Translations under genes and position numbers: made by a program | Shown: positions 869-57,915 of the stretch, in pieces | Layout of the letters: the number at the start of each line of letters is the position of its first letter | How positions within the stretch are numbered: the stretch's first letter is position 1 | Source: Onchidella celtica | Lineage: Eukaryota > Mollusca > Gastropoda > Systellommatophora > Onchidiidae | Direction: 5' to 3' | Assembly (NCBI GenBank): GCA_963931925.1 | Contig: OZ007570.1 | Coordinates: 46,418,487 to 46,482,486 of the forward strand | DNA: 64,000 bases | The notes under the pieces: model-generated | What the model was told of the DNA's origin: nothing | Database searches by the model: none | Seen by the model: the letters and a program-made list of their open reading frames with translations, nothing else

Positions 869-1984
869 TTAATTGCACTCACTCCACTCGTGACACTGGG
901 TCCCTTGGTCCGACAAGATCTCTTCGGGCACACCCAAACGGCTGTAGATGTTCACTAAGGCTTCTGCTACCGTTTCTGCGTCGATCTTCTTCAAGGGTGT
1001 GGCTTCGGGGTAACGAGTAGCGTAGTCTATATACACCAGGATATACCGATGTCCACCTTCACTTGGGGGGTCGATAGGTCCTACTAAGTCCACGGCCACT
1101 CGCCTAAATGGTACGTCCACTACTGGCATACTCTGCAGGTGCACCTTTGGGGTCGCTCCTTTGTTCACCGTCCTCTGGCATATGTCGCATGAGCGGCAGT
1201 ATCTCGCGACGTCACCTTCAATTCCAGGCCAATAAAAATTGCTCATAACTCTGTCTTTGGTTTTCTTCACGCCGAGGTGTCCTCCGACGATCGAGTCGTG
1301 GGCTACACTCAGTACATACTCCCTCAGTTTCTCGGGTAGTACCACTTGCCTCATAACCGTCGCCTGTCTCAGGTCCTTGTAGATCCGGTACAGTACTCCT
1401 CCATGTTTCTCAAAATGAACAGATTTATTGCCTCTATTAGTTGGGATCTTCTTCTGCTCTAACTTCCTAATGACTTCGTCTTCTTCTTGGAGTCGGATAA
1501 GTTCCTCTCTATCCACTCCCGCGTGCCGTTCTGCCCTCGGCACCTTCAGCGACGTAGACCGGTCCTTCCTCTTCTCCTGGGCCCTCGTGGTCACCGCTCC
1601 TACCATCACCTCAGTATCAGGGTCGTACGGATCCTTCGCTCCGTCCACGTTCCCGACTACTAGGTCGCAGATGGTCTCCGGGAGACACAGCGCCGTCACT
1701 TTGCCCGTCAGGTAAGGCGTCTTCACGTCGATAACGGCTTCCTCCGCCGCTAGCAAGGAGTTATCGATCCTCGCGATAAGTTTCTTCCCACCGGTGAGCT
1801 GTCCGTCGTCCACCAGTGCTCGCCGCACCACTACACCTTCACAGCCGGTATCTCTTAGGACATCTACCGCTCGATTTCCAATCAAGCCCTTCATCACTGG
1901 TAACTTCAGTTTCTCCACGGTCCTTCCGTCACTGCATCCTCCGCACGTAACAGGCACCGCTAACTGTAGCTTCCCGTCATCACC
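869..1984 (-). pseudogene. Ty3/gypsy-type retrotransposon pol fragment, protease directly followed by integrase
   Basis: A single open frame of about 370 codons on the minus strand. Residue numbers count from the GTG at 1957; the frame stays open upstream to about 1990. A retropepsin-like region carries DTG at residues 36-38. A linker containing VTTRAQ (about 122-126) and a charged stretch follow. Then comes an integrase zinc-binding HHCC motif (H220, H227, C257, C260) and the start of the integrase core, with Asp at 290 (VAVDLVGP) and Asp at 350 (LSDQGTQ). Homology stops abruptly after DQGTQ at about 896, so the third catalytic acidic residue is gone and the copy is dead. No reverse transcriptase lies between protease and integrase, as expected for Gmr1-type elements (PR-IN-RT-RH), although an internal deletion in a standard element is an alternative. 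Gag is also missing; the 5' side ends in a trinucleotide repeat. Confidence 0.88.
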
Positions 1985-2102
1985 ACGTCATCTTCACTAT
2001 CATCACTATCATCATCATCATCATCATCAACATCATCACAATCACCATCACCACCACCACCACCACCACCACCACCACCAATCATCATCATCATCATCAT
2101 GG
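1984..2102. repeat. (CAT/CAC)n trinucleotide repeat
   Basis: Runs of ATC, CAC and CAT triplets produce poly-His or poly-Asp/Gly open frames in different frames. These open frames are artefacts. The tract abuts the 5' end of the retroelement fragment. Confidence 0.95.
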
Positions 2103-11754: not shown

Positions 11755-21861
<10,107 letters not shown>

Positions 21862-25755: not shown

Positions 25756-26169
25756 GTCATATAGATCACACACACAATACACAGGCATACTCAAAAAAAC
25801 TGGACATTCAAGGTATAGAACAATGACTCTTCAAGTAATGTTTAAAAGGCATAAAATTTGTTAATAGGTCACAGAAGTTCAGAAATCTGTAATACTGATA
25901 GTTCACTTTTTTTTTTTTCAGCTCTATAAAACCAGACAGTGAGATGACTGATAGTAGTTTTTGTCATGGCTGAAACAGTCTTTTTCCACCCAATAAGATA
26001 TACACATATGACTCATTGCCAAATAAGAAGACAGAAATCTCTCACAGAAGTATGCAATTTTGATTTGTAAATAGTGAATCACCTTTAGAAAATAGATGAC
26101 CCTTGAAAGAAGAAAAAGTGTAGATATACTCTTGCTCTACGGAACTGATCAATCACAGAACAAATTCAA

Positions 26170-27480
26170 CTCTTGTGGTAAGAGTTATGGCCCCTTGAGT
26201 ATTACGCACAAACAAGGCTTCTTTTTCTATTTTTATGATTGCAAAATCAACATGGGGACACATTCTTCTTGACAATGCTACAAAGGCCAACTAGTATAAA
26301 GGAGACATAGATGCATGGATGATGTTTCAACATTTCTACACGTAGTTACCACCCCCCCCCCCCCCTGACAAGGAAAATCAGTAGTCATTCAAACATTTTT
26401 TTGTTTCAAAAAGTTTATTCCAAAACTGTCAAGCATTTTAATACCAGTCACATAAGACATGCACAACTCATCAAATCAAATAATATGATGTGTAATTCAC
26501 TGGTATAAATCTAGAACGGAAAGTAGTTATGCCCCTTGAAATCAGATTATTTAACATTGGTGAGTTTTTAGCAAATTTCTAAAGGGTTATCAGCATTTCA
26601 ATATTTATGAAAGAACAAAAGATTCAAAGCTTATCATAACAAATAAACTGACATGTAATTCATGGGCAGTAATTCGAAGTTATGCCCCTTGAAATTGGAT
26701 TTTGACAAAATTTAACAGATTCTATTGAATTTCTCAAAATCTATCAGCATTTGAATACTCCTGTAAGAACTAAAATTGCAAAGCTCATTATGACAAACAG
26801 AATGGTACCTAATTCATAGGAAGAAATCTGAATGGAGAGGTAGTTATGCCCCTTGAAATTGGATTTTGACAAAATTTAACAGATTCTATTGAATTTCTCA
26901 AAATCTATCAGCATTTGAATACTCCTGTAAGAACTGAAATTGCAAAGCTCATTATGACAAACAGAATGGTACCTAATTCATAGGAAGAAATCTGAATGGA
27001 GAGGTAGTTATGCCCCTTGAAATTGGATTTTTCACAAAATTACAAGTTTGTATTGAATGTTTCAAAAGCCATCAACATTTTAATACCCCTGTAAGAAATT
27101 AAAGTGCACATTGAACCATAATGAACAAAATGATGTGTAATTCATCTGATCTGAAGTGTGAGGCAGTTATTCCCCCTGATACTGAATTTTTCACAACATT
27201 AAAAGAGAGTTATATTAAAATCTGTCTCAGTGTCTGTATTTGAATACATCCCTGTAGGATTAAAATACGACGGAAGCTCATCAAAATGAATAAAATGAGA
27301 TGCAATTCATAAAAAACATAAACCTGGAAACTGGATTTTTCACATTATCAAATATTTTTTATCAAATTTCTCAAAGAAATCAGCATTAGAATAATGTGTA
27401 CAGTTCATCGGAATAAATGAATTGACAACAAAAATAGCTGAACTGTGATCTAGTTGTACCTTTCGAAATGATATTTTTTT
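26170..27480. repeat. Tandem repeat, unit about 164 bp, 6-7 copies
   Basis: Units are marked by GTTATGCCCCTTGAAATTGG at about 26526, 26681, 26842 and 27006, with decayed copies near 26184 and 27166. Two adjacent units (about 26683-27007) are almost identical over their whole length, which indicates a recent duplication; outer units are diverged. A 20-bp poly(C) tract lies at about 26347-26366. The array ends about 50 bp before the stop codon of the minus-strand gene and so probably contains its 3' untranslated region. Confidence 0.85.
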
Positions 27481-27527
27481 AACTATGTAGCGCCATAAGA
27501 GTTATTAAAATATAAAAGCAGAACATG

Positions 27528-30500
27528 CTATTTAAACATTTTGACCATAGGAACAACATGATTGGCCACCCAGTGCGTTTTTTTCATGTCCTTTCGATTT
27601 GAAGTCCACAAAATAAAGAGGGGATCTTCATACTGATAAGAAAGGGGTAGAAAAGCCCTTGAGAGTAGTTCCCTATTCTGTGGTGGCCCCAACTGTGGAT
27701 AAAGGGATATTATTCCACATCTAAGAATTTGGGCTGCTGCATGAAGATGCCATGGACCTAAGCATTTTCCGAGCAATCTTGTGTTGAAGACTTCAGTTTC
27801 AAAAATCTGCTCTGTGTCAGACAGTGGTATATCAAGAGGAGAATCTGAAACCGAGACAATCTGGGAAATTATTGTACTTCTATCTATATCGCTACCCAAT
27901 GACAGGAAGTCTGGATCAAGATACAAATCTTTGTTTGATACAAGTTCATGGATTAAGCGACAACGAATCTGCATGTGGCAGTTTTCTGTCCCAAACACCA
28001 AAGTACTCAATGATCTGGCAACACAGTTTCCATCACCAATTGTTAAATTTGGTAAGTAACCATGAGGAGAGTTTGGAGGAGCTATTTTCAAGGCCTCAGT
28101 ATCCAGGTTTATTTTGACAGGTTTAGGGTCAATTGATATTGGAGCAAATATTTGTTTCGAACATAGAGCCTGCATTTCGAGAAAAGAAGAGCAATTCTCC
28201 AGATCATGATAAAAATCCAGAAACAAATGTTTATCTGATTTTGATTTAGTCAAAATTTTGCTGAATAGCTGCCTCTTCACAGGCCTCTTCATATTCACAC
28301 AGTCTTCACCTTCAGAAAGGTTTCCATCCCCACTGACACATTCCTCCTCAACAGCATCACCCCCCTCAATATTTCCATCCCCACCAACAAATTCCTTCTC
28401 AATAGCATCACCCCCATCAACATTTCCATCCCCACCAACAAATTCCTTCTCAATAGCATCACTCCCATCAACATTTCCATCCCCACCAACATATTCCTCC
28501 GCAACAGCACCATCAACATTTCCATCCCCACCAACACATTCCTCCTCAATAGGATTTTCATCCTCGCCAACTTCAAAAATAACAACACCAGTATTTTCCT
28601 TGTGAATATCACCACCATCAACACTATCATCTTCACACCCAGCAATCTTACTTTTAGTCATTCTTTTCGCTTTGCTTCTCTTCACACCAGTGTTGTTTTT
28701 CGTAAGCCACAAGCTTTCTTGAAATTTGGGAACATTTTGAGAAGCACATTCAATATGTAAGCCTGACAAGCATTTAGGACAAAAGCAGGACAGCTGCCTT
28801 GTTGCTATCTTTCCCTCCCTGAGGAATTTGAAAGAGTGTAATTTCTTAATTCCTTTCAAAAGTGGGACGTCAGTTGAAGTGACTGAGCGATCAACTGCAC
28901 CATTTTCTACCAGATGAAATGTCCTAATGCAGTGAGAACAATTCTCATTTGAAAGCTGAAACTGGCTTTGCAAATACTCAAAAATATCCTGGGCATTGGT
29001 AAGTGTGGCTCGACAAGAAGCAACAGACTGTGAGAGAAATGATTTGACAACACCACCACTGGAGTCACATTCACTTTTTCCATGGCGTTCGCCAAAGAAA
29101 CATCTTTCAAAATCATATGTCTGAGCCAATCTACCTAAGTGGTAAACTGGTAACCTTGATTTATACTGTGAACTACAATTGTCTGAAAAAATGATGAAAT
29201 GCAAATTAGAATTCATGGACTGAAGTGTATCATCTAAAACATATTGAACAAAATGTGAATCATGCTTCAAGTCATCAGATATGTAGACCCTGTAACAAGT
29301 CTGTTTTTTCAAGCAGTGTGAACAATGAGTGTAAATAACAACAGGATGAATGGTGACCTGATGTAATCCATAGTAAGCCGACTGAGCCTGATTCTGAAAC
29401 TGACAGGTGTAATTTTCAGCATAATCAAGTACAATAAGTGCACAATCTGTGGGCAAAGATGACTTTAATGAATTAAATTGATGACGCTGCCATTTATCCA
29501 AAAATCTGTGAAGGGTGAAAACCTGCATGCAAGAAACAAAAGTAGAAATCAAGTCACGCATTGAACAAGTTCTGCTAATCAGGTTGGTCTTTTTACCTTT
29601 GCATCTCTCATCGGCAACTTGATCCCAATATTTATATGTCACTGATGCTGTGAGGATACACTTTGCCTGTAAATTTTCCTGAAGTAAGTGAGTTCCACAC
29701 TTGTTGCATTTCCTTTCAACACATTTAAGTGAGGGCCAGTTACCTTCAAAAGGGCAAAGAGTGGAATTTAAAGCATCAGTGACAGATGATAGGGACCCTG
29801 CTACACAAAGAGGCTTAAACATTAACTGCATGTTCTCACAGGTCTCACATAAACACTGTCTGAGCTTCATGCTTTTCATTTTTAAAACATGTTTAGGCCT
29901 ACACCTAAAAAAGTTTCGCTTTGAAACCTTACATGAAGGGTATTTCGACACAAAATCCAAATATATCAGTGAAATAGGTCTATTCAACACTTTTCTCTGT
30001 TTTTTCAGTCTCTTAGAATAAAACCTCTTGTCGGGTATGTCTACAGCAACTGTATCATAAAAAGACACAATCTTCTCTTTGATGGCACTGTGTTTTTTCT
30101 TTCTTGGCTTCTTGGCACTTTGTTTAGGGGGCTCACAGCTGTCTTCTTCCTGACATGATCTACTGAGTCGAAATAGTTTCTTCTTTGTATCAGGAGAGCA
30201 GGAGTTGATCAGCTGTTTCATTATGAAAAGTTTAGTTTTCTTTGATTTAGGCAAAGTTTTGTTAACTCTCCAAACTGCACTGTACTTTGCACTTTTTGTT
30301 GGAGATGCCTCACTGCTAGCTAAAGGAGTTGTGAAGGATGTTGGAGTTGACTGTTGTGAAGGAAGTTCTGTTGACTGTTGTGAAGGAAGTGATGCTGACT
30401 GTTGTGAAGGAAGTGATGTGCTTGATTTTTTCTGTCTCCTCCGTTCATTTTCCCTTTGGTTTATGGCTGCCCTCTCTACTGGAGTCATGGATGCCCTCTG

Positions 30501-31485
30501 AATTCGTTTTCTTTCTCTCCAGTAGCTGCGAGAGTCTTGCACACTCTTTCGAGTGACCTTTTTAGGTTTCTGTATGTGATTAGGATGTGGGCTGGGCGAA
30601 TCTTTTTTGGCTGCTTGCTTTGCTCTCCTGAAATAAAGAAAGTGAATAACCTTTAATTACACACATCTGTGTAGAATTGGGGGATTTCTGTCTCTTTAGA
30701 CCAGTTTGTTTCATAAAGTCACCCCTCTCATCACGTCCAGGGAGATCATTGCGGGGATGTCTTGTCTTTACCAGATAGACCTCCCAGGCTACTACAGTAG
30801 TAATGTCAGTCATGTTGGAACATTTTTTTGAATTTTTCTTTTGTAATTTAAAGTATCAATATGCCATCTGATTCATGGAGTCAACACTTTGTTTTGTGTG
30901 TGACTGTAACATGACGCAATCTGGGGTGTTTATTGCTCACCTTCAGCCATTTCCAATGTCCAGTGCACGGAACTGCATACTTTTAAAGTGCACCTTTGAT
31001 TTTGACAGATAAGCCACAATCATTGACTTTTTCTGATGCTGTAATCCTGAACTGTGCAAAGGATGTTTTTGTTTCCATTTGCCTTCTGGTGCTGATGCAA
31101 CCAGGAGTAAACAAAGCCTTTTGTGGCAAACTGTGGACTCGAAAGGCTCTATTGCAGCATTAAAGAGCAGTCTTGAAAGTAATGAGAGCAAAATGTAGCA
31201 CTCAAAATAACTGCACAGATAAGTGCTGAAATTACCTACATAATGAAAAACAACTCACCTCAATTCCCTTTGCCTTTGGGTCTTCCTCTCTTGTCTCACT
31301 TTCTTTTGATCGCCCGACAAATTATTCAGATAAGTTGACATGTATGATTTCTGTCTCTGTTTGTACTCCTCCCATTGTTGAGGATTCACCTTTAGCCTCT
31401 CTCTATATTCAGCTTGGTATGCTGCACCACTTTTTCTTTCTGGCTTCTTGCTCTTAAAGTTCAAAGCAACGTGCCTCAATTCCAT
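27528..31485 (-). CDS. Transposase-like protein fused to an OTU-type cysteine protease domain, 1108 residues
   Basis: Two coding exons on minus: 31485-31259 (ATG at 31485; acceptor at 31504-31505) and 30627-27528, joined in phase (GAG|GTGAGT donor, TTTATTTCAG acceptor). Residues 1-140 are basic with two related motifs (AEYRERLKVNPQQWEEYKQR and SYWRERKRIQRASMTPVERA). A triple LPSQQS repeat lies at about 150-170. Cys pairs at about 332-340 and 376-396 suggest zinc binding. The core has LDYAENY (D477), FSDNCSSQYKSR (D558) and ERHGKSECDSSGG (H591, D597), a D...D...D layout resembling an RNase H-fold transposase. A second Cys cluster SCFCPKC is near 690. Five 17-residue acidic repeats with GDGN span about 770-850. 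Residues ~915-1105 look like an OTU domain: IGDGNC (D941, C944) and HWVANHVVP (H1099). The frame is fully open over 3 kb. I do not know the superfamily; it may be a live transposon gene or a domesticated one. Confidence 0.8.
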
Positions 31486-31505
31486 GCCAAACTTTGAACT
31501 ATCCT

Positions 31506-33305
31506 GTCAACAGAAATGTAACCAAATTAGAAAGTAGATCAAAATTAATTGCTTCATAAAACAATGTCATTATTTAATGAAGCGCTACCCTCTTTACATT
31601 TTTCCTTACACCTACCATACTGAATTGGACAGCATATTGGCTGTCATACATGTACATATCAAATTTTAATTATTTCCTTTTCTTATATTTCTTTATCAAG
31701 CAGTTTAGTAAAAATACCTAGACCTCACTTGAAAGAACTTCAGATACTGTAAAGCAGAATTAGGCAGAAATAATATTTAATGCTTTTATTCCCTTGATAT
31801 TTTTGATTATATGGCTTTTCTCCTTACATGGCTACAACTAAGTAAGATTCAGTTTAAACTGAAATGACGAAGAAATGTATGAGCACCTTTATATTAAAAA
31901 GTGTCAATTGCTAAATATCCATCACGTTCCTCTACTTTTTTCTGCTTAAAAGAAAAATTATATCAATGCAATGGAGCATCTCAGTCACAGTTACCATTCC
32001 TTCCTATTGCTAACCAGATCCATGAGTCAAGCACATCATTTCTCTCATTAGCCTATAATAGATTATGAAAAATATAAAAAGAATCTTGGGGACAAGGTAA
32101 ATCTCTTCCTTCTTCCAGCAAAAACAAAATTGTTTTGATTTTTTAAATAAAATAGCTGTCCTCTGAATATTTTGAAGCCTATGTCAAACAGACTTTTGAT
32201 TTTTGCACTTGCAACAGAATTTCCTCATCTAAATCAAAATTACAGTCTAGATCTAGTGTAGAAAACATCCTTAGTAAGCTTAAAAATATATTAATTTCCT
32301 TTATTTTGCACAGCAAACACATACTTAAAACTTATCCTTAAGGGACTGTCTTCTTGGCATTCTTGAGGCAAAGTAAAAAAAACAACATATGGACACTTAT
32401 AAACTGGAAAATTGCTAACCTATGACAAAACAAATCCATTCCGTTAAAAATTACATTATTCCCAGATAAACACGGGTTAAAAATATTTCTACATGCTGTA
32501 TGAGAGCTGAATTTCCTTACTTGGCCTCAATGGACAACACAAAATGGCTGTCCTGCTTCTGATTTAAAAAACAAGTAATATGGTTTGGCACAAATGTCCA
32601 AGCAGCTGCACTAGTTTAGCTTAAAACTGAACTTGATTTAAATGCTTTCATGTCATCATGTATTAGATCTAGACCTAAGCCTTGCTGAGTTTTTGAAAGA
32701 TAACTTTAGCTTGAAATCCCTTACTTGGTTTCAATGCATGTCAATGGACTGCGAAACACAACTGTCCAGGCAACTTATTGAGGAAAAGTCAAATATTTAT
32801 TGCAGTGAGATGGGAAATAGTCAGAATGAGAAGAAAATAAAAGAATACAATATAATCAGTGGTAACGTTTAACATGGTGATCAATTGTCGTCTATTTATG
32901 AAATGTATCTCTTTGGGGCCAATTCATGTCCTTACTAGGACCTCGCTGGACAGCGTAACTGATCAACAGATGGATACTGATTTGCTGTCCTGTTATGATT
33001 TCTGAAGATAAGTAAAACAAGTTCGCATGTGCTTATTGGTAATCTTTGACACATCTAATGCTAAACTGGATATATATTTTTCTGTTGTTTCCTTGTGCTA
33101 GTTGATAACACAAGTGATAATATATTATTCGAGTTTAGATCAGTACCTAAATTCATTTTACTTGGCCTCAGTCACACTCAGTGGACTGTTTACAAATTGC
33201 GGTCCACGTCATTTTGAAGACCGAGTCAACAAACATTGCCATGTTAGGCACACAATCCACTCAATATATCAAAATATATATTTAAAACAAAATTCATAAG
33301 AGCAA
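31506..33305 (-). other. Intron 1 of the OTU/transposase-like gene, with degenerate repeats
   Basis: AT-rich. Loose copies of a ~210-bp unit (CTTACTTGGCCTCAATGGAC...GGCTGTCCTG) can be seen near 32510, 32715, 32930 and 33155. No coding exon recognised. Confidence 0.45.
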
Positions 33306-33311
33306 ACTTAC

Positions 33312-33440
33312 CATTATTGAAAGGGTTCGTTGTGTGTAAAGATCAATCTTCTTCAAGGCATGTCGAAACTTTTACTCGATCTTCGCTGAAGCTGCGGGAC
33401 AGCGGCATGGCGTACGAAAGAGTTGTCTCGCATTTCGCGC
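33312..33440 (-). promoter_or_regulatory. Candidate untranslated first exon and CG-rich promoter of the OTU/transposase-like gene
   Basis: On minus, TTTCAATAATG|GTAAGT at 33312/33311 is a strong donor. It faces the acceptor TTCTGTTGACAG before the ATG exon, giving an intron of about 1.8 kb. The stretch 33330-33450 is clearly richer in CpG (for example GACCGCGCGAAATGCG) than the AT-rich surroundings. Short upstream ATGs occur. No transcript evidence. Confidence 0.4.
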
Positions 33441-34149
33441 GGTCATGAGTAAAACGAGATGCTATTAATTTGTTTTTAATTCTTTTTTTTTTCTTGTTTT
33501 CTGTTATTCATTCAACTGTGTATGTAGAAAACAAGGTTAGCATACGGAGGTTTGAAAAAAAAAGAATGTTATAAAAATTACTTCCTTCATCTTACTTTGC
33601 CTCAAAAGTTGGACAGGAATTCGAACATTCCATTTGCCAAAATTCTTTTTCCAAATTCATTGACGGTCTTTAGAAATGAAACATCCTCGATCACTTCCTT
33701 TGTCCTTAAGATTTACTGATTTGAAAGTTGTTCATAATTTGTGAGCATAATCTGGCAGTTTTTATGTTTTCAATTTTTACGGAAAGTTGGACAGCAAAAG
33801 TGAGGCATGGGTAATATAAATTTATTACGTCCAAACAATCATACAAACATCCGTCGTTTTTGTAAATGGACTAAAAATGTCAGTTTTGATTATTTTTTAT
33901 CAATTTCTGGTGGCTAAAGCTATTGTTTGTATTCCTAAAGCTTTAATGTAGTGGTCTAGACAGAACATGTCATTTTTGAGAGATTTTGGCCCCTTTTTTC
34001 AACCCACTTTTTCATACATTAAAATCAATATCTTTGAAACCAAGAAACTTTAAAAAGTACAAATGTCTAAGATGATAAATCAATCAATTTTCTACTAAAT
34101 GAGCATAAAAAAATACCCCTTTGCATACACATAATGATTAAATTAGCTT

Positions 34150-34440
34150 TGTTCATGTCAGATGGTTGCTCATTTCCCTTATTTGGCAATGAGTCATATG
34201 TGAGTAGATCTAATGAAATCTGGCTGAAGGTGAAGGACCAAATTCCTGAGAGAAACCCTCCAAAGGAGTTCTGTGAAAATTAAGATTTGCTTATGATATG
34301 AAAGATCAGCCATTTCTCTGCATTCAGGTAAAATATTTTGCTTGAATTATTTGAAATCATCTTAGAACTATTTTATTTTCATTTCGTTAAAGAGGTATAA
34401 AAACACGACCTTCAGCCCGGTTTTGTCAGATCCACCCCCA
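34150..34440 (+). repeat. Dispersed repeat family R1, copy 2
   Basis: Plus-strand copy sharing CCTCCAAAGGAG, ATTTGCTTATGATATGAAAG, TAAAATATTTTGC, GAGGTATAAAAA and CCCGGTTTTGTCAGATCCAC with the copies at 21332-21590 (minus) and 57655-57915 (plus). Confidence 0.75.
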
Positions 34441-38289: not shown

Positions 38290-40015
38290 AGGTGGCTTCA
38301 GAACAGTTCTCTCAAAGCCCGAGAAATTCCATTGACTGATTTAGCAAAATGAGTTCATTGCCCTATCGATGTTGAACAACTGGCGGTGGGAAATGCAGAA
38401 TAGAAAGAGAAGCGCTGGAGCAGAAACCTCTTTTTTAAATTCAAGCGATCAATAACTCATGTATCGAACTGCTGTTGCCAATCAATTGATCAATCAATAC
38501 CAATAACAACAACGCACATTTAAAGAGACCGCAGGTATCGTTAACAGTAAGTTATTCTGTTTGGCTACAGAAAGCCTGGAGAAGAAATTCGGTTAAATCT
38601 ATGATGAAGCGTGTGGCTTGTGAACTGTTGTGTTTATACGCTTCACTAGAGCAGTCTGAAGCTATGACTACGACGAGAAGTCATGTGTTGGATCTGGAAT
38701 TCACGTCACTAAGATGTAGGCCTAGTTTTACAGGTGTTATGTAGTAGACAAATTTTCGGCTCTTAAATTTTGGCATTTTAGCATCAGGTCTAACTAAATG
38801 GTCCGTGTTGCAAGTCTTCAGGCCTTGTTATTTTAAATACACCACCAGTACAGATATGGGTACGCAGTGATTCTAAACAGTGTAAAGCTTATTGAAATAC
38901 ACCAATTTGCGATTGTCCTAATGGTTATCGCGCTAAACTGTCTTAGGTTTACCTGTGAGGCAAACGAGAACATGGCACCTTCCTACATGTGATTAGAGGT
39001 GAAACATTCCACAAGCCTTTGGTTTTCTTTGAGAATACCCATGTTGGAGACATCAGTTGATCGACTACTTTGTCTTCAGGAAACAGCGCAGATCCCCACA
39101 AAAGAGTCTTTGGGAAGGTAAGTCGTAATACATGTATTAATGCTAGCAGATGCAGCTGTGATGTGTCTGAAGAAATTTCTGAGCTGAAGACTTTTATTTT
39201 TTAGTTTCGTTGGTTTGAAAGATACAGTATAACGATAGGAAAGAGTTCTCTAGGTCCCGCCACCCGGTCCAGATACCTAAACAGAAGGAGTATCATACGA
39301 GTTACACAACTTTCATACTATAAAAACACTTATCAAGTGGACAAACTCACTCCTAAAGTCGCGTCCTTGTAGTATCTCTACTGCGTGACTCAAGTGCCCC
39401 CCCCCCACTCGCCCCACACACACATGCACAAACCTAAATTATAATCTTATCCATACATTAATTTATCCTTTACACGCTCAAGCAGAAAACACGGGTTTAG
39501 GGTAACGAATAATAATGATAATGGATAGGGATAGGTTTAGGACATCTTGACTGGGTCGTGCATAATAAATTGCCAAGACATGATACTAGCCAATCACATA
39601 TAGTTAGTAGTTCATGCTACACGATATAAAATTCATCTCCTTTCTTAGGTTTTGTGTTTTGGAGATAACGAGATTCGATTAAGCCTTCCCTAGATTTTTA
39701 ATTTCGCGAGCAGTACGTCTTTCATCAAAGATTAGGTGAGAGAACCCTTTCTCCAAAATTGTAAATCTTCTTTTGGAAAGGCATGCACGGCTATTACTGT
39801 CACTTTCCTTGCACTTGTCGTTTAGGTTCACGCCAAGACAAATTAAGTGACACTTCACTGTTTGTAAAGCTGTCGGTGCAAGCTCGAATTCTGCTTTAAA
39901 TGACTCATTTTGTCTATCAGCTTGCTATAAATTTCTTTAAGGCTCAGTTATAAATATAGATATATATAGAGCCCTCTGTCTCTTTGGAAAATGTCCTCAA
40001 CAACTGCCTCTTCAG
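38290..40015. other. Intergenic, no gene recognised
   Basis: Nothing beyond short low-information open frames. A poly(C) tract lies at about 39397-39406. Confidence 0.5.
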
Positions 40016-40033
40016 GTGCAGTTTATAAGATTG

Positions 40034-40251
<218 letters not shown>

Positions 40252-40259
40252 AGTCCTGT

Positions 40260-41950
40260 CTGTTTTTCAGTCAGTTTATCCGTCCGCCTGCCTGTCTGCC
40301 TGTTTGTCTATCTATCTAATACGGCTGGTAGTCTGTCTGATTTCTTGTCTTCTTGACAGCCTGTATGATCAACAAATGGTACTGTTTTGTTCCCCTTTCC
40401 TCCCTTCGTCGCTTCCAAATTACAAATCTGGTTTCCATCAAACAAAATGAGGAAGTTAGGATTCATTGGGCCGATTAGCAGTAACGTTGTGAGGGGGAAT
40501 TCATTGCATTGTTTAACTACTGCCTGATGATGCACCAGAGGCCAGAAAATTTTAATGCAGCATTTGCAAACGTGGTCATTATTACCCTTGACTGATCAGA
40601 CTATCGTGCACGACGAAAACCAAGCAAAAAACAAATAAAGCTAATTGTTGCCTGAGCCTGATCTCTGAGGTCACTTTCTAAAAAGTATGACTCACAATGA
40701 GTATGGCCTTTATTTTTTTTTTTGGTAGTGAGTAAATTGTAGTTCACTGTAGTTCACCCCAAAGTGCTCGGTGTTGTATATTATTTAACATAATCTAAAA
40801 GTTAGTGCCGTACTTTTGCAATAACCAATTATCTAAATAATCTGCAAAATAATAATTTTGCGTATTGATAGGTTTACAAAACTCTTTTCAGATCTAGTCT
40901 ATATAGGGGACAACGTTTGAGAATTTTACCAATGTAATAATATCAATACGGAATTATTTAATACGACCGGTATTTGTGAAATCTAGAAGCTCTGCATACC
41001 AAGCATGAACAAGAGTACCAAATAGATCATGAGAGGCATAAAGTGGCCGTGATCACGCCGACGGGCCGCAGAACCCAAACCCAAGCTCTAGCTCACACCT
41101 GCATTATTTGACTATAAAAATTATTATCTAAATTTTGCCTGTTTCAGAAGTTTTGGATATTGCAGTCTGTTTCTGGGCGGCAGAGGTTTAAGAACACACT
41201 GGTAAACATAAAATAATAACTTCAAAAACAACACTCGGGGAATTTACTCGGAATAATTAACAGAAAATGTTTGGAGAAAAATACAGGGCCAGAAATTACA
41301 GACGTTGTAAAATCGAAAGAGTCTTGCAACTTGACTTTAGGGTGGTCTTGCATAGCGTTTGAAATTGGATACTCTTGGAATGGAAGAGCTTCTTGGACTT
41401 TAAATAGTTTGTTGTAGGCCTCTAATGGAATGTTCACTGGCACTGTTGGTGGAGTTTCCTTTATTGTATCCCTAAAGTTTGTCCCTTTACATAGTGTCAA
41501 AGTCCTTCTTTTCTTTGGTTTGAGTGAACCTATTCACGCTGAGAGTCTTTCAACAGCTTATATAGATGCACAGAAAATCCGTAGAGTCGAGCTTGAAATT
41601 GATGAAATATTATAATAATTATAAATAAAAACAAACAAACAAAGGAAATATAATGTGCGGTCTCAGCAAGGCTTGAAGCAAAGTCAAAATTAAAATCGCA
41701 AAACAATAAGTTGTCCGTAAGAAAGCCTGGCATGATGAGAAATAATACGGGCCAATCTGCATAATATTTAATTTTTGTGACATGCGGTAGCGTTTTCTGA
41801 AATATTAGAATGTTGCAATGCACTGCAGTTTCTGAACAAATCTTCTGTAATTTTCCTTGCTTTATAAAATATCCTTTCGAGAAGGAATTGCGAAGTGCGG
41901 AATTTCCAACGTTAGTCAAATTATTTAAAACACGGTTATCTTCCCCTAGG
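40260..41950. other. Intergenic, no gene recognised
   Basis: No motif-bearing open frame, element end or RNA gene seen. Confidence 0.5.
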
Positions 41951-45514: not shown

Positions 45515-46499
45515 GGTAAAAGCACATGTATTTCTTAGTTTGATTTGAAGTCCTTTCCTCACTACGGGCTATGCCTGGAATCATGCTTATTGCTACACTT
45601 AACAAGTTTCCCCGATGTCTAAGTCCATCACTCCCGACTGAGAATGAGAGGGGTAAAAGAAGTCACACATAAAGATGGTATTACAATTTCTCGTATACAT
45701 ATGTACTGTGATTTTTACCTAGGACATGGTGCGACTTTATTTGGAGCGCCTCTGTTCACAACCGACAAAATTGAAATTAAAAACAAACCAAAAAAAAAAA
45801 AAGCGTTTACGCTGACCAGACTACAAGCTGTACTCTACTTGGCAATGGGGGAGGTATTTGTTGTTGTTGTTGTATTTGAAAAAGAAAAGTCTCAAGGAAA
45901 CATCTATTTTATGTATAGACTACGAAAAAAAAAAATGAACCTGTCTTTTAAATGCCCCAGCTTTCAGAATAAATTTATTCATTTATTACTTGATTCAACT
46001 TTTTGAGGTTTGGGATCGTTCCGTAAAAAAAGGGGCGTCCCTTTCACTTCAGTTCTTGTTTGACTTTCTCATAACACATTGCGCAGGTCACAGCCCTTGA
46101 AGTTCAATGGATCTCCCTAAAGTGCTTGAATGGAAACAGAATACTGTACACACAACTCTTAGTGTGGACGCTAACGTCAGTGATATGATAGGAATAGAGC
46201 AGTTCGCATATCACTGTGAAAATGAAACACCCAAGGAAATGTTTACATTATGTATACCTGGTTTAAAGGGATTGGGATACGGCGTGTATTTCCTCTGCTG
46301 TAACTGCGGTCACTTATCTTCGTTCCGTTAGAATTGGCCCTGTTTTGATCCTTTTGCAGCTGGTATGACGACGGTATAGAATTTGTGAAAACTGAATTGC
46401 CAGAATGATAAGATCTGTTGAAGTATAGGAAGACAGGAAGACATATATGAACAGATTGGACAGAGAAATGAAGAGAGGGATAAAGTGAGAGAGAAAACG

Positions 46500-46500
<1 letters not shown>
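45515..46500. other. No gene recognised
   Basis: Includes a 120-codon plus-strand frame at 45644-46006 that is Lys/Phe-rich around poly(A) tracts and shows no domain. Confidence 0.5.
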
Positions 46501-46778
<278 letters not shown>

Positions 46779-46799
46779 GGGGAGGGGTTTTGGGGGTTT

Positions 46800-47550
46800 C
46801 ATACTCTCATTACCATTGAATTTTACTCTTTATAGAACAGTTAGACTGCGTCCCTTATCAACAGCCACCTATTGTTAACAAGATTATGTTGCTTAAAACT
46901 GAGATAATACTGGTATAATTTAAACGATGTATAGGATTAAAAGAAGGGAACAGGTACGCAATAATTACATAATTAATGGCATAATTATTATAATTATCCA
47001 CTAGCACATCCAGTGCCAGTTCGTGATTCAATCACTCAATCGATCGATCATCAATCAGCAAAACAACCGATCGGTCAGTTAACCCATCATAATGAACTCA
47101 CTGAGAATAAGATATGGGTGTAAAATGTGTCCCCGTTTACTGAAGAACCCCCATTGAGATATGATATAGGCCTAATAATCAGTGTAAAGTTTACCCGAAT
47201 GTCACACAACCCCCCATTAAAGTCAGTGTTTACTATGCGTGTACACACGCCTCTGCCAGTATCGCTGGATAATGACGCTGAGCACACCTGCCAGTGAGTG
47301 ATCTGCATTTTAAATTACACACACCCCAGCACTGACACAGTGACAGTTCACTGAAGGTTTACTGGTGTGAATTTTAAAATGTTTTCACATGTATCGTGAG
47401 GCGTTTCCAAAGTATGTGGTAAGAAAACTGATCATAATTATCGTAAAACGCATGCATTGATATTAATGATAACTAAACTTTTTAATGTTTATTTCTTATC
47501 CCCCCCCCCCCCCCCCGAGGATGTTGTTATAATGAGCAAACTGTTTTTCC
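46800..47550. other. No gene recognised
   Basis: Contains a poly(C) tract at about 47501-47516. Nothing else supported. Confidence 0.5.
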
Positions 47551-47819: not shown

Positions 47820-48470
47820 ATGGGCCATAGCACTTGTCCAGTTGTTTCACAAGTCCGATTTATTTTAACTCCTAATTGTAAAACCAAAGCCACAAACTAT
47901 TTAAGTCTAATTTTCTCATTTGTGTGAAAAGTGGAGTTGGAACAAACGAGAACTAAGGTCGAGTTTTATTACTCAATTTACAGATAGGGCAGAATTTTTA
48001 TATAAGTTTTTCTATTTTATATTCCACTATAAATCTGATTAAAAAGATGTACATTCTGTGCACAGATAGGGTAGTTTCTTTTTCTTTTTTGGAAGTTTTG
48101 ACAATTTTCTTCCGCTTCACGTCTAACAGAATAAATGTTAGTGAGTTGTAATGACAATTTTGTTTCAGTAAATTCCATCTGCACTGGCTTTTAACATTTT
48201 AACTGCTGTTCGTATCTCGCGAAACAATCAGGTTTCTCTCTTTAATTTTTAATATAAAATTTATTAATGTTCCCTTTACTGTTATTAATATCACGTCTAT
48301 GACAAGAATGAACGGGATGATCACCGTAACTTATGGATACTATAGTGTGCTCATTGAGGACAGTGTAATTTTGTCAAAGTCGAGGCAAATAACATGAACG
48401 CCACGAGAATTATGCAGTCGTGCACAAAGACTGGAATGTCTCTTCATTGGGAAAAAATTTCAACAAGCTT
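47820..48470. other. No gene recognised
   Basis: AT-rich sequence, no supported feature. Confidence 0.5.
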
Positions 48471-48473
48471 TAC

Positions 48474-48800
<327 letters not shown>

Positions 48801-49127
48801 CGCCTAAACTACCCGTTTCATTCAGCTAAATTACCCTCAGACTGACCTTCATCTTTCCACATAGCCATTAACTGACCTATCGACCTACGTATCCACCTAG
48901 TTCTGTGACTACTCACCTGATACCTGCCAGTCTCTTACCTACCTTCTTGCACATTCACTTACACTCGAAAAAAAACCAACTTATTTAACTTTCATATAAA
49001 AAAAATTATTGCAGTTAAGTAAACTGTAAAGCTCACTTTCAATGCTGCTGTGCATTAACGCAAAACAATAAAAGTTAGCTATAACAAGCAAAGAATAGCC
49101 GAAAACTAGGCCTAGTTTACTAGTTAA

Positions 49128-53039: not shown

Positions 53040-53945
53040 AGTCCATGACAGTCTTCTGAAGGTGTCGGAGAACTTCACCTATCTTGGCAGTACACTGTCT
53101 TCCGCGGTTCGTGTTGATACTGAAATTCTCTCAAGAATCAGCAAAGCCAGCTCTGCATTTGGCAGGCTTCGAAAGAGAGTATGGGATGTCGCCGGCATTC
53201 GCACAGACACTAAGCTGAAAGTGTACAATGCTGTGGTCCTTCCCACCCTACTCTATGGGGCTGAAACCTGGACAGTGTACCAATCGCATGCCAGAAAGCT
53301 AAATCACTTTCATCTGGCCTGCCTTAGAAAGATCCTAAGGATCAAATGGCAGGATAAAATTCCAGACACTGAGGTCCTCAATCGTGCCAAAGAATTGAGC
53401 ATCTTCTGCCACCTGAAAAAAATTCAGCTACGTTGGGCAGGACATGTTGTCAGAATGCCCGACTCCAGACTCCCTAAGCAAATCTTCTTCTCTGAGCTCT
53501 CCAATGGAACGAGGAATGTTGGGGCCCCAAAGAGACGTTACAAAGACACTCTCAAGCAATCACTGAAGGCCTTTGCCATTGATGTGAGTGAGTGGGAAAA
53601 GCTCTCGCTTGATCGTGCAAATTGGAGGGCGGCCCTTACCAGAGGCAGCAAAGCATGGGAAGCTGAGTCCAGCAGGCTATCAAAAAAAGAGAACGGCGCA
53701 AGGAAAAGCCCAGTGGTACTGAACCAACGGAGCACTCTTGTCATTTATGCGGAAGGGTCTGCAGTGCAAAAATAGGACTTATCAGTCACATGAGAAGCCA
53801 TAAGTCATGAAAGAACAGTCTTTCCATTCTGTCCTCTGTGTCCTTTAGTTTCTCTTTATTGTCCATGTGTTGAAATTCTCAACAATTTCTGTTCTTTATA
53901 CCTCTGGTGTTGTTAAGGTCATCATCATACCTGATGGACGAACTA
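53040..53945 (+). pseudogene. LINE retrotransposon, 5'-truncated 3' end with RT C-terminus and C2H2 finger
   Basis: From about 53057 the plus frame reads VSENFTYLGSTLSS, then RISKASSAFGRLR, YNAVVLPTLLYGAETWT, HLACLRKILRIKWQDKIPDT, LRWAGHVVRMPD and RYKDTLKQSLKAF. This is the conserved tail of a non-LTR retrotransposon reverse transcriptase protein. Near 53685-53710, next to an A-run, the frame shifts. In the alternate frame a C2H2-type finger (HSCHLCGRVCSAKIGLISHM) and a stop at 53808-53810 follow, so the copy is broken. The 3' UTR-like sequence runs to about 53945 (GGTCATCATCATACCTGATG). The clade is not resolved. Confidence 0.85.
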
Positions 53946-54028
53946 TTATTACGGACAGGACAAAACGTTTTCAGCATACATTTTAATTCCTGTGCCACCG
54001 TGGTTTTCTTCGGGTTATGTTGTTGCTG

Positions 54029-54347
<319 letters not shown>

Positions 54348-54394
54348 CTTTGTCTGTCTGCCTGCCTGCCTGCCTGCCTGTCTGTCTGTCTGTC

Positions 54395-54425
<31 letters not shown>

Positions 54426-54464
54426 CTCTCTCTCTATATATATCTGTCTGTCTGTCTGTCATGA

Positions 54465-55675
54465 TGGCTGACACTTGTGCTGCCTGCCTCATCTAACCGC
54501 ACGCCGGCACATAAAACACCCTACAAAAGGTTTTATAGCAAACATGACATTATCATGGATCATTAGCTCTGCGACTCCACGTACTTGCTATGAAAAAATA
54601 TACACAATGAAATCCCTCGTACCGTTAACGAATACATTAACACTAATTGTTGAACAACACAGACCCGTGGTTTCCAGTTGGACTCGCTGGCGATCCCGAT
54701 TGAGTGAAATGAACTGTGTTAAAACATCAACGAGGGGTTTGTTGATTTAAAAAACAAAAGGAAGCAACAAAGACCTTTTAACACTTTGTCAGCATTACGA
54801 AATCACACCAGAACAGAGATTGTCTATGACCTCATCCTTTGTAATGCTCACTGAAAATACTTTGACACGGTAGGTCTACATTTCAACATTACTCAATGTT
54901 GAGTTGGGGTTGATGACACTTTAACGGACCCACGGCTTAGCAGGGTCTGAGCCCCATAGATCTGCCCATCAAAGCGTATATTTTGTCCTGGTCACTGGGA
55001 CCATGGGTAGGAAAACGTTTGGATGGGTCTTGGAGTGGGAAGAGGAGCACTTATGGGGATGCCCGGTGTGTTTGGATTCTGGTCCCTTTCATCAAATTAA
55101 ATCAAATCAATCAAATCATGGATATCAGTAAGAACAGTCAACCTCACAACAACCCTGACGGGCCAGTTTTGTCGGCTAAGATTTTTTATCTCTACTTTAC
55201 GGACTGTCGTCACTTCGCTACTTTAGTTCCTGTTTGTTTCAACTCCACACTTTGCACAACTAAAGAAATTCGACATTAAACGTTTGCAGCTTTAGCATTA
55301 TGATAGAGAGTTAGATTACATCGGAACTGTGAAACAGCTTGATAAATGCCACAACGCATTTTTCAAATAAATGTCAAAGTTTGCATTTGTATACCTCTTC
55401 TACATACTCAAAGATCTCCAGTTTTTCAGGAAATGGAGTAGAACAAAAAAGAACTAAGGTTTGCTACCTGAGTAGACACTCAATATGCCTCTGGATGACG
55501 TCTTCTCTGTAACCCGGAAACTAGAAGTGTCTGCACGGATTGGGAATGCCAAATAGACTTGTGGCTCGCATCTTTCTAAAAAAAACACTTTCAGTTGTGG
55601 GGTGTCATTCCCAATCCATTTATTTTCTCAATTTACTTTAATTTTGCTGTTTTAGTGTTTAATTTCTGCCATATA
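54465..55675. other. No gene recognised
   Basis: Only the 55365-55440 dispersed repeat partner is recognisable. Confidence 0.5.
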
Positions 55676-57654: not shown

Positions 57655-57915
57655 AGGAGCATAATTTGTGAGTGAATCTGACGAAATCAGACTTAAGGTG
57701 AAAGAGCAAATTCTTGAGAAAACTCCGCCAAAAGGGGACACAATTTCTATGAAAATTGAAATTTGCTTACAATATGAAAGATTAACCATTTTTCTGCATT
57801 CAGTTAAAATATTTTGCCTGAAATCTTCGTAGAAATTATTTTACTTTGATTTTTTAAAGAGGTATAAAAATTCCACATTTAACCCGGTTTTGTCAGATCA
57901 ACCCACATTTATAAA
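57655..57915 (+). repeat. Dispersed repeat family R1, copy 3
   Basis: Shares GAGAAAACTCCGCCAAAAGG, ATTTGCTTACAATATGAAAG, TTAAAATATTTTGCCTGAAA, GAGGTATAAAAATTCCA and CCCGGTTTTGTCAGATCAAC with the copies near 21.5 and 34.3 kb. Confidence 0.75.

Follow-up and report, generated by a model that had tools for sequence, protein, structure and literature searches.

The window analysed here is a stretch of 64,000 nucleotides from the gastropod Onchidella celtica (assembly GCA_963931925.1, 1.14 Gb in 43 contigs; contig OZ007570.1, positions 46,418,487 to 46,482,486 of the forward strand), and its subject is a DNA transposon of 8,186 bp (26010-34195; Table 1) whose single long gene, on the minus strand, encodes a transposase-like core joined to an OTU-type cysteine protease. 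The open frame 30656..27528 runs for 1,042 codons without an internal stop, and a predicted, phase-consistent splice (donor GAG/GTGAGT at 31259/31258, acceptor TTTCAG/G at 30628/30627) joins it to the exon 31503..31259, giving exactly the 1,108 residues, starting MELRH, of the two-exon, stop-free gene described in a first-pass annotation made from the letters of this DNA. A predicted upstream exon ending ATG/GTAAGT at 33312/33311 adds seven in-frame residues (total 1,115), which accounts for the coordinate 33440 and the second intron of that annotation. The product of exon 31259..31503 resembles the N-terminus of a protein from the scallop Argopecten (P0018; BLASTP, E 1e-5), a match that weakly backs the predicted gene model. 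The protein starts with a basic N-terminal region, which is followed by a Cys-rich region, a DDD-type RNase H-like core and the C-terminal OTU domain. Also recovered were two features pointed out earlier, namely the Cys clusters (six Cys between C268 and C320, a putative zinc-binding region N-terminal to the core) and an acidic 17-residue repeat, which corresponds to a 51-bp tandem array. Residues are numbered below in the 1,042-residue frame, where D411, D492 and D531 are D477, D558 and D597 of the 1,108-residue protein.

Terminal inverted repeats, which the first-pass annotation had failed to find, are present: two perfect 18-bp termini sit within a 25-bp perfect inverted repeat bracketing the gene, with the 4-bp target duplication ATAT on both sides, and at the junctions the ends of the window family read GACTC...GAGTC. 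The inverted-repeat sequence has two matches in the window with up to three mismatches allowed, and 0 of 100 shuffles had two. The self-comparison of the genome proposed in that annotation yielded copies, ends and duplications alike. In the same genome, the open reading frame (ORF) is intact at ~100% identity on C4, C11, C12 and C16, split over two frames on C10 and broken at another part of C16; a genome-wide ORF search gave at least 56 matches (44 of 2,174 candidates scored). The copies on C11 and C12 align to the window element end to end (0 substitutions and 2 gap positions for C11, 1 substitution for C12), the C12 alignment continuing for 39 bp beyond the right end and into a repeat common to both flanks. 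The C10 copy is without a right end, and for the C16 2.2-Mb copy, whose ORF is intact, no left end was found in the stretches examined. The element has moved very recently, as is shown by near-identical copies elsewhere in the same genome.

Two further OTU-bearing families have related ends, namely family B (GAGTCATTGCC, 10,514 bp, duplication ATAT) and family C (GAGCCATTGTC, 8.33 kb, duplications ATAA, ATAT and ATAA). Together with the window element (ATAT) and its copies on C11 (ATAT) and C12 (AAAT), all seven two-ended copies show matching 4-bp duplications (ATAT four times, AAAT once, ATAA twice), an outcome preserved in 48 of 5,040 permutations. Seven single-end flanks read ATAT, ATTT, ATAT, ATAT, ATAA, ATAC and TACT. 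That the locus is a mobile element is thus, in our judgement, practically certain. The first-pass annotation had also allowed for a host gene, and a domesticated gene with transposase and OTU domains would agree with the long intact frame, the predicted introns and the small number of amino-acid changes between copies of a related family. For this locus that possibility is refuted, and left with a negligible probability, by the presence of several near-identical copies that lie at unrelated sites and have both inverted repeats and target duplications.

The catalytic core is predicted to adopt an integrase-like RNase H fold (residues 395-577), as a structure check suggested earlier was meant to reveal, and the D...D...D signature first seen by eye falls at the standard beta1, beta4 and alpha4 positions of that fold. 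In an alignment of 27 rows, D492 and D531 are Asp in every row and D411 is Asp in all 25 sequences reaching that site, so the conserved Asp triad, as judged from the alignment, is not a chance pattern. We hold it as very nearly certain that the core is RNase H-like and of the DDD type. D462/D466 (within ISDDLxHD) were considered as a catalytic pair and rejected, each Asp being present in just 24 of 27 rows. The integrase neighbours of the core come from the VIA fold list, whose top 50 include retroviral integrases. No transposase superfamily was named for the core in the Foldseek and VIA lists (absence there excludes nothing), a PDB sequence search with the core gave no relatives at E <= 1, an NCBIfam scan of seven proteins returned nothing informative, and Pfam offers no convincing transposase family for the window core or for the 31 proteins in set A3. 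DUF7869 (PF25273) was set aside as a name for the core, with one of the 31 proteins (P0031) matching below cut-off and a literature search returning nothing.

At the other end of the protein, the C-terminal IGDGNC...NHVVP pattern noticed earlier (residues 873-1036) lies in a predicted OTU fold (residues 857-1041) with Asp-x-x-Cys and His correctly placed, and an OTU fold can be assigned here with high confidence. Of 27 rows, 13 carry Asp-x-x-Cys, and 12 of them also have the His, the exception (P0005) being cut short. The earlier proposal of a transposase-like core fused to an OTU-type protease therefore gains support from homologues, from the conserved residues and from the two predicted folds. 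A hidden Markov model search for OTU, also suggested then, succeeded in part: Pfam OTU (PF02338) scored above cut-off in P0002, P0003 and P0035 only, the remaining proteins scanned, including that of the window, being below it or without a match. With OTU deubiquitinases (PF02338; OTUD3, A20, Cezanne, nairovirus OTU) the domain has in common the fold, Asp-x-x-Cys and His; it differs in its fusion to a transposase and, in the window protein, in a sequence too divergent for Pfam to recognise.

Judged by its fold and residues, the OTU domain is likely an active deubiquitinase. It is unlikely, in comparison, that the OTU of this mobile element has no protease function and is there just to bind ubiquitin or to act as a scaffold; the low number of above-cut-off Pfam OTU matches (three, that of the window protein not among them) speaks for such a role, and the Asp-x-x-Cys of 13 rows, 12 of them with the His, speaks against it, as does the lower rate of non-synonymous change (dN) in the OTU part than in the remainder (0.40-0.47 vs. 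0.51-0.60 in three between-family comparisons, with synonymous change, dS, saturated or nearly so). A comparison of L021 with L024, both of family C, gave 11 synonymous and 4 non-synonymous differences (dN 0.0017, dS 0.0169), 3 and 1 of them, respectively, within the OTU part. At the level of coding sequence, the OTU appears to be kept together with the transposase.

Homologues of the core were found in Argopecten, Mya, Diadema, Elysia and goldfish (scallop, clam, sea urchin, sea slug and fish), along with further proteins. Among these named relatives only the Mya arenaria protein shows OTU motifs; the Elysia relative is a 449-aa fragment, and the C-terminal part of the goldfish protein is of a different kind. 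The Mya protein (P0024, labelled 'VRTN-like protein' at its source) shares the core motifs and carries a homologous OTU (31%, E 7e-22); it differs in being without the stretch that holds the beta1 Asp (a gap at D411). Because this distant protein and the window protein have homologous OTU domains, the transposase-OTU fusion is probably old, as far as sequence comparison can tell. For pig vertnin, a helix-turn-helix motif of IS3/IS911 type has been reported (PMC3024977). In a tree built from 36 proteins out of 38 (a short core excluded P0008 and P0035), OTU-bearing proteins are spread over several subclades. A single later gain of the OTU was considered and set aside, but many rows without OTU are truncated predictions, in which a missing domain does not count as a true absence. 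Four proteins from another lineage (P0010, P0022, P0023 and P0034, the goldfish one included) have no OTU and a different C-terminal part with a common HPHG motif, recognised by eye, and they cluster with P0031 in the tree. Prokaryotic or viral relatives were sought and none was obtained: tblastn against phages gave zero matches, and none of the matches to two short peptide patterns was confirmed in IMG/VR (20 pattern matches) or in GTDB genomes (30 pattern matches).

The closest published description is that of Sola2, with inverted repeats of 12-21 bp and AT-rich 4-bp duplications AWWT (ATAT, AAAT, ATTT) (PMC3627910) and a presence in bivalves (PMC10294476). The window element resembles it in its short terminal inverted repeats (18 bp), in an AT-rich 4-bp duplication in seven of seven two-ended copies (five fitting AWWT exactly), in one large transposase with a DDD/E RNase H-like core, and in occurrence in molluscs (bivalves, for Sola2). 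It differs in the C-terminal OTU protease, which goes unmentioned in the parts of PMC3627910 and PMC10294476 drawn on. No title or abstract opening searched names an OTU-bearing Sola2 (Repbase Reports and subscription journals lie outside that coverage). We read the locus as an autonomous DNA transposon that was active recently, most likely belongs to Sola2 and encodes a single transposase-OTU protein (probability roughly 0.87). Membership of Sola2 taken by itself is likely, judged from the published ends and duplications, and on the same comparison the element probably represents a Sola2 branch that carries an OTU. That it is an entirely new type of transposon, as the first-pass annotation had left open, looks unlikely because ends and duplications agree with Sola2 as published, a comparison by description.

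Several observations count against parts of this reading. The ATAA duplications (two of seven) fall outside AWWT, two of the seven single-end flanks (ATAC and TACT) are not AWWW, and one family C copy, on C5, sits in an AT microsatellite, where 6 bp match and could form the direct repeat. Among the 22 proteins of the profile search (A2), most of them without an organism name, none is named as dictyostelid, a group from which Sola2 has been published. The Pfam scan of the window protein gave zero matches at E <= 1, OTU included; confidence in the structure model of the whole protein is moderate (mean pLDDT 65, pTM 0.42); and none of 12 Foldseek matches at E <= 0.001 is an integrase. The close-copy selection test depends on 15 differences in family C, and in family B the copies L015 and L018 differ by 3 non-synonymous changes and by none that is synonymous.

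The same element could instead belong to a DNA-transposon superfamily of its own, apart from Sola2, in which AT-rich 4-bp duplications arose by convergence. In favour of this are the lack of a convincing Pfam transposase match, of a sequence-level link found to any named superfamily, of a dictyostelid-named match and of a searched title or abstract opening naming an OTU-bearing Sola2; the agreement of end structure and duplications with published Sola2, and the record of Sola2 in bivalves, stand against it, and we regard it as doubtful. An elaborated form, in which an animal-wide, recently active superfamily apart from all named ones would have its transposase fused early to a working deubiquitinase, needed for stabilising its own transpososome or for countering ubiquitin-based host control, is rather improbable.

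Ginger1 elements carry a C-terminal OTU or Ulp1 protease and a Gypsy-type integrase with a zinc finger and GPY/F, and have CCGG/CCGT duplications, TGTNR termini and inverted repeats of 40-270 bp (PMC2836005). The window element is like them in combining a transposase with a C-terminal OTU, in its 4-bp duplication and in an integrase-like RNase H fold, the fold neighbours in the VIA list being retroviral integrases; it is unlike them in its AT-rich ATAT/AAAT duplications and GACTC ends, and the window protein has no match to the rve or H2C2 Pfam models at E <= 1, though both models hit a Gypsy-type ORF elsewhere in the window. A Ginger1-type element was rejected on ends and duplications and is very improbable; a fold-level kinship to integrases may exist. 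That Gypsy-type integrase fragment (872-1987, minus strand; Integrase_H2C2 75 bits, rve 33 bits) served as a positive control for the Pfam scan. The TTAA duplication of Kolobok and piggyBac is not matched by the window element. Duplication length alone fails to exclude the KolobokP branch, which is frequent in bivalves, because its duplications are 3-5 bp (PMC9587614). KolobokP was rejected on two other grounds: (i) long terminal direct repeats flank its internal region (PMC9587614), and self-comparison of 26010-34195 revealed internal repeats only, none common to both ends; and (ii) the window protein lacks the C/DxxH motif that is reported to follow the second Asp and precede the final acidic residue in Kolobok, hAT, P, MuDR and Dada (PMC9587614), as do 26 of 27 rows (P0011 being the sole carrier).

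Table 1. Features of the transposon and its gene (window coordinates; residues in the 1,042-residue frame).
Feature	Position	Strand	Basis or remark
Left target-site duplication ATAT	26006..26009		junction reading
Left terminal inverted repeat GACTCATTGCCAAATAAG, 18 bp, perfect	26010..26027	+	C10, C11 and C12 copies align starting 26006-26008
Subterminal tandem array, period 164 bp	26678..27108		weaker copies ~26419 to 27266
Main coding exon	27528..30627	-	1,032 complete codons after split codon, plus stop
OTU-type cysteine protease domain, residues 850-1042	27531..28109	-	predicted fold and conserved residues
OTU catalytic codons	D875 28032-28034; C878 28023-28025; H1033 27558-27560	-	
Acidic 17-residue repeat linker (51-bp tandem array)	28321..28549	-	modelled pLDDT <50
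Predicted RNase H-like catalytic core, residues ~403-577	28926..29450	-	structure model and alignment
Core Asp codons	D411 29424-29426; D492 29181-29183; D531 29064-29066	-	alignment and model
Conserved Cys cluster C268, C270, C301, C312, C317, C320	29697..29855	-	invariant in nine rows of alignment A2
Predicted GT...AG intron	30628..31258	-	splice-site prediction
Upstream coding exon, basic N-terminal region	31259..31503	-	splice prediction and BLASTP to Argopecten P0018
Predicted first intron	31504..33311	-	prediction only
Putative 5' exon, start ATG 33314-33312	33312..33440	-	prediction only; upstream limit from first-pass annotation
Right terminal inverted repeat	34178..34195	-	partner of left repeat
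Right target-site duplication ATAT	34196..34199		junction reading

Subterminal tandem arrays, which may provide additional, putative transposase binding sites, have periods of 164 bp in the window family, 234/173 bp in family B and 194 bp in family C; the 164-bp array carries the motif GTTATGCCCCTTGA near one end. A dispersed repeat of ~245 bp with inverted ends of its own (34196-34440) starts where the right target duplication does, and other members lie at 57664-57907 (plus strand) and 21346-21567 (minus strand). The C12 copy likewise adjoins this repeat family, in the opposite orientation, with ATGTGAGTAGATC beside the element in both cases, a possible target preference. Elsewhere in the window, long tetranucleotide arrays (39941-40450, 46243-46829, 48358-48845 and 53874-54496) translate as SIYLSIYL or SINQSINQ in several frames, and an Rfam scan gave nothing at the gathering threshold.

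By analogy, the element would work as other cut-and-paste elements with a fused protease do. The N-terminal and Cys-rich (zinc) regions would bind the element ends; D411, D492 and D531 would coordinate two metal ions for cleavage of the ends and for strand transfer, with insertion into an AT-rich target at a 4-nt stagger. The OTU, through C878, H1033 and D875, would strip off ubiquitin or another modifier like it, the likeliest substrates being the transposase itself or transpososome-associated host factors, and this removal may prolong activity or help repair.

Overall, the element at this locus is complete and seems to have been mobile recently, and it unites a transposase and a ubiquitin-type protease in one protein. 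A role of the ubiquitin pathway in transposition has been suggested for Ginger1 and others (PMC2836005), and the availability of several near-identical copies with defined ends makes this suggestion testable. The transposase-OTU fusion reaches beyond Ginger1 and provides a recognisable signature for transposons invisible to Pfam, in molluscs and echinoderms among others.
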